Below, in pieces: positions 5,211 through 50,715 of a stretch of 50,715 bases of DNA. The stretch covers positions 1-50,715 of the forward strand of contig JAAXWL010000007.1 of the NCBI GenBank assembly GCA_013334975.1, given 5' to 3'. Source of the stretch: Chlorobiaceae bacterium. GTDB taxonomy: Bacteria; Bacteroidota; Chlorobiia; Chlorobiales; Chlorobiaceae. Each line of letters opens with the position of its first letter. The first letter of the stretch is position 1. The position numbers were made by a program, and so were the translations under genes. The notes under the pieces are model-generated. The model saw only the letters and a program-made list of their open reading frames with translations. It ran no database searches and had not been told where the DNA came from.

Positions 5211-5483
5211 TGTCGTGTCAACGGTAAATAGTCAGAATATCATTTATCATCAAAATCGGTATCCAAATCGGTATCGGTATCGAGTTCAACTTGAAAGAGA
5301 ATAAAGAAAAACTCACCGAGCATGATGGATTATTGTGATAATCATTATATAATTAAACAGATACAGATATACATATAGATACAGATACAGATCAGTTTTC
5401 TGTTTCTACATAAATAATCGATTTCGATCCCGATCCCGATTTCGATTTGGATAAATCAATGGATTAAAAAATAATACGACAGT
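5211..5483 (+). repeat. Dispersed intergenic element, copy A (MITE-like)
   Basis: A 273 bp element. The left end TGTCGTGTCAACGGTAAATA matches copies B and C. The right end, read on the other strand, is TGTCGTATTAT. Inside are an ATCGGT-rich arm (5253-5284), a conserved core AGAAAAACTCACCGAGCAT, an expanded AGATAC-rich spacer, and a complementary arm (5417-5455) ending TTGGATAAATCAATGG. The arms can pair into a long stem. I see no ORF and no clear target-site duplication. Confidence 0.75.
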
Positions 5484-5546
5484 TTACGCCTGACAAGACA
5501 GAAGTCCTTTCAGTCCCTTTTCTTTTCTCCCAGCTCACCTGCCTTT

Positions 5547-21701: not shown

Positions 21702-22012
21702 TGTCGTGTCAACAGTAAATAGTCGGAATTTCTTTTATCATCGAAATCGGTATCGGTATCGAGTTCCACTTGAACAAGCCAAAGAAAAACTCACCGAGCA
21801 TTATGGCTTATTGTTATATCCATTTGATAACAGGCAAAGAACTCCGTTCTTCTCAGTGAAACAGAAACTCGATGAGTAAGCCAGTCAGCGACGACAGAAA
21901 TTGAGGTCGGTATAGCATTGAATCGAGATTCCAACTCAAATCCGATACCGATTTCGATCCGGATAATTCAATGGCTCAGAAAAATACGTCAGATTAAGAT
22001 TGATACGACAGT
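21702..22012 (+). repeat. Dispersed intergenic element, copy B (subtype 2 core)
   Basis: A 311 bp element. The left end TGTCGTGTCAACAGTAAATA and the right end (other strand) TGTCGTATCAATCTTAATC form about 11-bp terminal inverted repeats with one mismatch. The core AGAAAAACTCACCGAGCATT is shared with A and C. The middle (about 21828-21940) differs from A and C but matches the partial copies at 43.0-43.6 kb. The right arm contains CCGATACCGATTTCGATCC. Confidence 0.75.
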
Positions 22013-33619: not shown

Positions 33620-33966
33620 GCCGGACGGACGATGGCGTTTCTGCTGACGTATGTATCCCGAGCCTTCGGGTCGTATCAAGCTTAAAATGACGTATTTTTC
33701 AGCCATTGGTTTATCCAAATCGGTATCGGTATCGAAATCGATTATTTATGGAAAAGCAGAAAACAGTTCTATGGTCGTATCTGTCTAAATTTTATGTGGT
33801 TATCACAATAATCCATAATGCTCGGTGAGTTTTTCTTTAGTCTCTTCAAGTGGAACTCGATACCGATGTCGATGATAAAAGAAATTCTGACTATTTACCG
33901 TTGACACAGCATTAGGTCGATGATCAGGAGCATGACGACCTTAGACTTTATGCCTTTACGGCGGCA
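33620..33966. other. Gene-free convergent intergenic region
   Basis: This is the 347 bp between the nitrilase-fold gene and the DUF4405 gene. It holds a small CCCGA/TCGGG hairpin (33657-33670) and copy C of the dispersed element (33670-33911). No protein gene is seen. Confidence 0.8.
33670..33911 (-). repeat. Dispersed intergenic element, copy C (subtype 1 core, reversed)
   Basis: A 242 bp element in the opposite orientation to A and B. Reverse-complemented, it begins TGCTGTGTCAACGGTAAATA and keeps the core AGAAAAACTCACCGAGCATT. It then has TAAATAATCGATTTCGATA, TTGGATAAACCAATGG and a right end TTGATACGAC. Order and arms match copy A, with a shorter AGATAC-type spacer. Confidence 0.75.
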
Positions 33967-43012: not shown

Positions 43013-43259
43013 AGTTTGATTTTCGATACCGATACCGATTTGGACAATTCGCGTGCCAGCACCTTTTTTTTATCGGTATCCAAATCGGTATCGGTATCGG
43101 TATCGGAATCGGTATCCAAATCGGATTTCAGTTGGAATCTCGATTCAATGCTACACCGACCACAATTTCTGTCGTCGCTGACCGGCTCACTCGATCAATG
43201 AGTTTCTGGTTCACTGAGAAGAACGCCGTTTTTTGCCTGTTATCCACTATCCACTTTCC
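43013..43259 (-). repeat. Dispersed element, partial copy D (subtype 2)
   Basis: Reverse-complemented, it matches the middle of copy B: CAGCGACGACAGAAATTG, GCATTGAATCGAGATTCC and TTCTTCTCAGTGAA. It then runs into an enlarged ATCGGT/CCGATA array (43070-43118) with interspersed TATCCAAATCGG, and a second short array at 43021-43042. It lacks the conserved CTCACCGAG core and the left terminal repeat. Confidence 0.7.
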
Positions 43260-43302
43260 ATGAACATGCACGATCTATCAAGTAATTAGCCTTATTTGGC
43301 CT

Positions 43303-43394
43303 GTCATACTGAATGAAATGAAGCATCCAGTCGAAACGCCTCGGTGCTACTCGAAAGAACTGGATTCTTCGTCGGCAAGCCTCCTCAGAATGAC
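43303..43394. repeat. Second-type inverted repeat (GTCATNCTGA family)
   Basis: The left arm GTCATACTGAATGAAATGAA with GCATCCAGT pairs imperfectly with ACTGGATTCTTCGTCGGCAA and CTCAGAATGAC. The arms are about 30 bp around a loop of about 27 bp. It resembles the widespread CATTCTGAGCGAAGCGAAG-type repeats of bacterial genomes, which I recall but cannot check here. Confidence 0.6.
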
Positions 43395-43486
43395 ACACAA
43401 AAACAAGTCTCACATTATCCTGTCATCGCGATGGAGCACATTGTTCAAGGTCTGTGTGCGGTAGCCGACCGGATACCGGAGGCTAT

Positions 43487-43549
43487 CAAAGAGTTTCTGA
43501 TTCACTGAGAAGAACGGCGTTCTTTGCTTGTTATTAATTATCCATTAGT
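43487..43549 (-). repeat. Dispersed element, partial copy E (subtype 2 middle only)
   Basis: GAGTTTCTGATTCACTGAGA followed by AGAACGGCGTTCTTTGC duplicates 43201-43257 with about six changes. It also matches copy B in reverse. No arms or ends are present. Confidence 0.65.
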
Positions 43550-50547: not shown

Positions 50548-50600
50548 GAGCAGTTTCATAGTGTCACATCACGCATGAACTGACGCATGATACGGGGTTT

Positions 50601-50642
50601 GATTTATCCAAATCGAAATCGGTATCGGTATCCAAATCGATT
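50601..50642 (-). repeat. Dispersed element, solitary arm (copy F)
   Basis: GATTTATCCAAATCGAAATC, then GGTATCGGTATCCAAATCG. Reverse-complemented, this is the right arm of copies A and C. No core or left end follows before the window ends, so it is a fragment. Nothing else is seen in 50548-50715. Confidence 0.65.
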
Positions 50643-50715
50643 CATTCTATAAATAATAAACCCTGCCTTTTAGGTTATCTGTCATAATTTAAAGGCGTTA
50701 TTACACGCTATACAC

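Follow-up and report, generated by a model that had tools for sequence, protein, structure and literature searches.

The Correia elements, RUP and nemis insert at 2-bp TA targets, and insertion sequences of the IS5 group and of the IS701 type produce 4-bp target duplications of the form YTAR. Together with ERIC, the former three are counted among the bacterial MITEs, and the ERIC counts given in a review range from 30 to 711 per genome (PMC10969869). BrickBuilt of Porphyromonas gingivalis carries one array of 23-nt units and is present in 19 copies in strain ATCC 33277 (PMC4596501). Our literature search found no MITE described for green sulfur bacteria, and a text search for TGTCGTGTCAA, one form of the left end of the element considered here, returned unrelated subjects only.

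The stretch analysed (the window) comprises 50,715 bp of contig JAAXWL010000007.1, from a Chlorobiaceae bacterium that, going by the closest named records for one window protein, may be called a Chlorobaculum species. Dispersed across the window and the rest of the host genome is a gene-free repeat with defined ends, a 4-bp target duplication and empty orthologous sites in relatives. It is a new MITE family, a well-known kind of element that has been amplified in one species and is almost absent from its relatives. The family adds a well-defined MITE to the green sulfur bacteria and offers a case in which MITE amplification limited to one species can be measured. We consider it very probable that the family is defined by its ends, inserts at NTAN with duplication of 4 bp, was mobilised in trans and has later decayed.

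Copies in the window and in the host genome

Three full copies lie in the window, each between convergent genes (named by Pfam). Copy 1 (5211–5500, forward strand, 290 bp; nhmmer family model E-value 1.6e-75, end set by eye) separates a phosphofructokinase gene from a nucleotidyl-transferase gene and has the flanks GTTG/GAAG. Copy 2 (21702–22010, forward strand, 309 bp; 7.5e-54) is found between genes for a bifunctional nuclease and a BamA/Omp85 protein, with flanks GAAG/GTAG, and is longer than the others because it contains part of a second dispersed repeat, designated family B. Copy 3 (33669–33911, reverse strand, 243 bp; 1.3e-67) lies between genes for a carbon-nitrogen hydrolase and a DUF4405 protein, with flanks CTAA/CGAA. 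None of the three contains an ORF of 80 aa or more, in agreement with the preliminary description, which had reported these copies as a family sharing a left end and a core. That observation is real and far beyond chance by pattern counts in the window: with up to 3 mismatches allowed, the left end TGTCGTGTCAACGGTAAATAGTC has three sites (chance 0.00), and the core AAAAACTCACCGAGCAT has three perfect ones (chance 0.26). The coordinates first given for these copies hold apart from their ends, which shift to 5500 in copy 1, to 22010 in copy 2 and to a start at 33669 in copy 3. The right end of copy 1 had been wrongly placed at 5483, since the TACGACA at about 5476–5482 corresponds to the TACGTCA motif that family members carry internally; the true terminal ...CTGACAAGACA stops at 5500. 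A fourth copy was missing from the earlier count of three: it occupies 50562–50715 (reverse strand; 1.8e-22), where only the right half is present and the contig end cuts off the rest. Its terminal TGTCACATC is at 50562, with ATAG just before it.

The host assembly totals 2.79 Mb in 178 contigs. With copy 2 as the query it yielded at least 87 matching stretches (40 of 274 candidates scored), and at least 150 matches came from a model built on the left 129 positions. These sources supplied 163 distinct copies or pieces, 89 of them near-complete and 84 usable with both ends. Near-complete copies measure 219–309 bp (243–309 bp for the three full window copies), typically about 260 bp, so that 150 copies at 260 bp would make up about 1.4% of the genome. 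The terminal inverted repeats common to the copies are TGTCGTGTCAAC...TTGACACGACA, and fuller versions of these imperfect repeats read TGTCGTGTCAACGGTAAATAGTC on the left and ATACGTCAGTTTAAGCTTGACACGACA on the right. The GTCAA core of the left end is almost invariant (conservation 0.89–1.00), while the outermost bases vary, above all at the right end (0.50–0.81). Ends that failed to coincide across many copies had been named in the preliminary description as grounds for abandoning a mobile element; they agree in the 84 full copies. Copies share on average 76% identity in pairwise comparison, and the closest pair reaches 94%, indicating that amplification was not very recent. Convergent neighbours, the rule for the full window copies, are not preferred genome-wide, where a rough ORF count, in which at least copy 1 was misclassified, gave a near-random distribution of 18 convergent, 15 divergent and 43 tandem pairs.

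Insertion sites and orthologous regions in relatives

Copies are inserted at NTAN sites. Exact 4-bp direct repeats flank 18 of the 84 full copies, against 5.8 expected from shuffled left and right partners of the same copies, and none of 5,000 shuffles reached 18. The first position of the NTAN flanks agrees in 49 of 84 (28.8 expected) and the fourth in 52 of 84 (27.8 expected); no other duplication length tried on these copies gave a comparable signal. The commonest duplications are GTAG (8), CTAC (6) and ATAG (2). A 2-bp TA duplication of the IS630/Tc1 type was rejected, as agreement of the outer flank bases is accounted for by a 4-bp duplication only. Of the 35 copies with NTAN on both sides, 18 have flanks that are not identical, including ATAG...CTAT pairs; mutation and recombination between copies are possible causes of the inequality. 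No clear target-site duplication had been seen in the window, and there indeed the 4-bp flanking repeats are only imperfect (GTTG/GAAG, GAAG/GTAG and CTAA/CGAA), which explains why a signal that is clear genome-wide went unnoticed. Two features of the flanks of the 84 full copies are recorded here: the ATAG...CTAT flanks, seen in four, are mirror images and not direct repeats, and the base adjoining the element tends to be G at the left end and C at the right.

One insertion could be compared with unoccupied sites in the same genome. Copy L063 sits within another dispersed repeat (GGGGACTGGGTTTT...CCCTATTCCC), and when its flanks are joined with one 4-bp unit kept, they align without a gap across the junction to unoccupied paralogues. 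A further dispersed repeat, of the kind GGGGACTGGGTTTTCCCTATTCCC and present at L063, L203, L109 and L118, serves the MITE as an insertion site.

Comparison between species is at the level of the spacer, intergenic DNA being too diverged for base-exact empty alleles. The gene pairs flanking all three full window copies are kept in Chlorobaculum relatives, where the spacer is mostly short and holds no element. For the copy 1 pair the spacer is 57–471 bp in 14 relatives (169 bp or less in 12), compared with about 440 bp here. For copy 2 it is 104–127 bp in 13 of 20 relatives, 244–342 bp in two and about 0.9–1.1 kb in five, compared with 544 bp; for copy 3 it is approximately 26–213 bp in five named Chlorobaculum or Chlorobiales records, compared with about 350 bp. 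The comparison of occupied and empty orthologous sites proposed in the preliminary description thus finds the element absent from the orthologous regions of all three window sites. Across 395 genomes of the phylum, the family model found convincing copies only in the host genome and in one other member of the genus (G001). The G001 copy is flanked by GTAG/GTAC and is less secure, because it comes from a draft genome contaminated to about 5%. Two weak matches to the family model in a further member, G019, are to hexamer arrays, and the remaining genus genomes gave nothing. The exact left end has no match in 84,980 species genomes, a set from which the host's own genome may be missing, and is absent from the viral contigs searched. 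Coinciding ends, empty orthologous sites and the 4-bp duplication all support the original reading as a non-autonomous transposable element.

Hexamer arrays and family B

Each copy carries a left array of 1–7 hexamers and a right, inverted array of 0–7, consisting mainly of ATCGGT, ATCGAA and ATCCAA. In copy 1 the left array spans 5250–5282 (forward strand; ATCGGT, ATCCAA, ATCGGT, ATCGGT) and the right array, by pattern reading, 5419–5453 (reverse strand). Further tandem units of the three types occur in the window at 21740–21762, 33713–33741, 43021–43122 and 50605–50640. Pattern matches number 265 in the host genome, 13 in G019, 5 in G017 and 0–7 in other members of the genus, and in G019 and G017 inverted hexamer pairs stand alone between genes.

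The arrays are also present in family B, a second dispersed family of about 190–260 bp (AACARGCAAAGAACGSCGTTCTTCTCAGTGAACCAGAAACTC ... TACGTCAACAGTACATGATTTTCTTAGGAA) found on the reverse strand at 43023–43247 and 43485–43540 of the window and also at L009, L015 and L256. It has candidate 5-bp flanking repeats (e.g. TGGGT/TGGGT), and several copies are nested in the MITE, inserted at GATAA in the cases read. In copy 2 a family B piece extends from the GATAACAGGCAAAGAAC motif at about 21826 to about 21940 and is fused to the right hexamer array. Another repeat, CCTGTCATACTGAATGAAATGAAGCATCC...CAGAATGACACAC, occurs near family B at 43291–43400 and is also nested in one MITE copy (L003).

The plain explanation of the arrays is a turnover of units by slippage and by recombination between arrays. 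Their presence in two mobile families is a tractable puzzle, and one conceivable though unlikely solution is that they form a functional platform, for example a putative host-protein binding site, which exists in several members of the genus and was adopted by two unrelated mobile families. If true, this would explain why units rarely mutate despite their freely varying number.

Another proposal, which we regard as very improbable, is that the inverted arrays are the real unit, an intergenic satellite that spreads through recombination or gene conversion of its own and carries the flanks along. The arrays of family B, and the inverted pairs that stand alone in other members of the genus, would suit such a satellite, as would the resemblance of copy 2 to a fusion of one array with another. 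With gaps left out of account, array columns also show higher conservation (0.95) than the other columns (0.81), but the difference vanishes when missing units are scored as mismatches (0.83 vs. 0.79, p 0.12), and the fixed outer ends with their target duplications show that the ends account for movement.

Mobilisation, RNA folding and likeness to known elements

Under the MITE reading, an element would insert into NTAN and duplicate 4 bp, a step backed by the flank statistics. We infer mobilisation in trans by a DDE-type transposase, which would move copies by cut-and-paste or by copying, the likely source being an insertion sequence that has been lost, has diverged or is absent from the assembly. 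The copies would then decay as point mutations accumulate, as the two arrays gain and lose hexamer units and as other elements insert into the copies, changes that can be read in the sequences themselves. Weighing against this reading are the failure to find a partner in the assembly, the unequal NTAN flanks, the variable outermost bases of the right end and the lack of a very recent pair of copies.

Candidate partners were sought in the draft assembly. Neither the DDE_5 (IS701) transposase nor the rve-type (IS3/IS21/IS30/IS481) transposase had any match in the host genome, and DDE_5 had none in the rest of the genus either. DDE_Tnp_1 (IS5/IS4/IS1634) is represented by only two genes, on contigs C42 and C49, whose sequences resemble those of IS1634 types; these contigs have no TGTCGTGTCAAC site at up to 1 mismatch and no TGTCGTGTCAA end. 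None of the three groups is supported as a partner, there being no such gene with matching ends in the draft assembly, consistent with the earlier remark that the window holds no transposase. A multicopy insertion sequence may hide at contig ends, since the draft is broken into 178 contigs, and the autonomous element may have been lost, have collapsed at contig breaks or have more diverged ends. As in the IS5-group and IS701-type insertion sequences, the duplication is of 4 bp with a central TA, but given a host genome without DDE_5 and DDE_Tnp_1 contigs without the TGTCGTGTCAA end, the family is not assigned to either.

Longer copies were considered as autonomous or gene-bearing versions and rejected. 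In a 1,024-bp copy (C5:22069-23092) the insert proved to be the remnant of a group II intron (Rfam RF02012, RF00029), located at 1605–2357 of L064 (C5:22173-22925). Copies of 475–625 bp contain nested family B or other repeats and, by eye, no gene.

The failure to find a transposase partner in the assembly, and the lack of any copy pair above 94% identity, could also be expected if the family were a degenerate full insertion sequence, all of whose copies are internal-deletion derivatives, dead relics with no further mobility in trans. We give this little credence, because 84 copies of similar length share the same interior and have independent target duplications, which requires amplification after the internal deletion, the defining property of a MITE.

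The preliminary description had also allowed for a mobile structured repeat, and in the RNA sense this is not supported. Individual copies fold somewhat more stably than shuffled sequences (z −3.1 and −2.6), as a result of the inverted arrays and ends, but the consensus structure of 36 aligned copies reaches only −3.6 kcal/mol, its covariation term is −0.06, and 2 of its 13 predicted pairs have any double change. A vertically inherited regulatory or structured RNA (riboswitch, terminator-like or sRNA repeat) is thus extremely unlikely despite that folding and the convergent genes around all three full window copies, since the element is absent at the orthologous sites, the consensus fold lacks covariation, the unit numbers of the left and right arms are uncorrelated (r −0.04), Rfam detects two tRNAs and no other family in the window (copy 1 giving a chance-level match only), and neighbour orientation is near random genome-wide.

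As a MITE family, the Chlorobaculum element agrees with ERIC, the Correia elements, RUP and nemis (PMC10969869) in being short and gene-free, with terminal inverted repeats, a target duplication and a high copy number. It differs from them in its 4-bp NTAN duplication, and no sequence match was obtained in the searches made. With BrickBuilt (PMC4596501) it has in common an intergenic location, restriction to a species and an internal tandem array whose unit number varies, but its units are of 6 nt, in two inverted arrays, and its copies number at least 150. In build, it is most alike to the high-copy bacterial MITEs (PMC10969869) and to the minisatellite-bearing BrickBuilt (PMC4596501).
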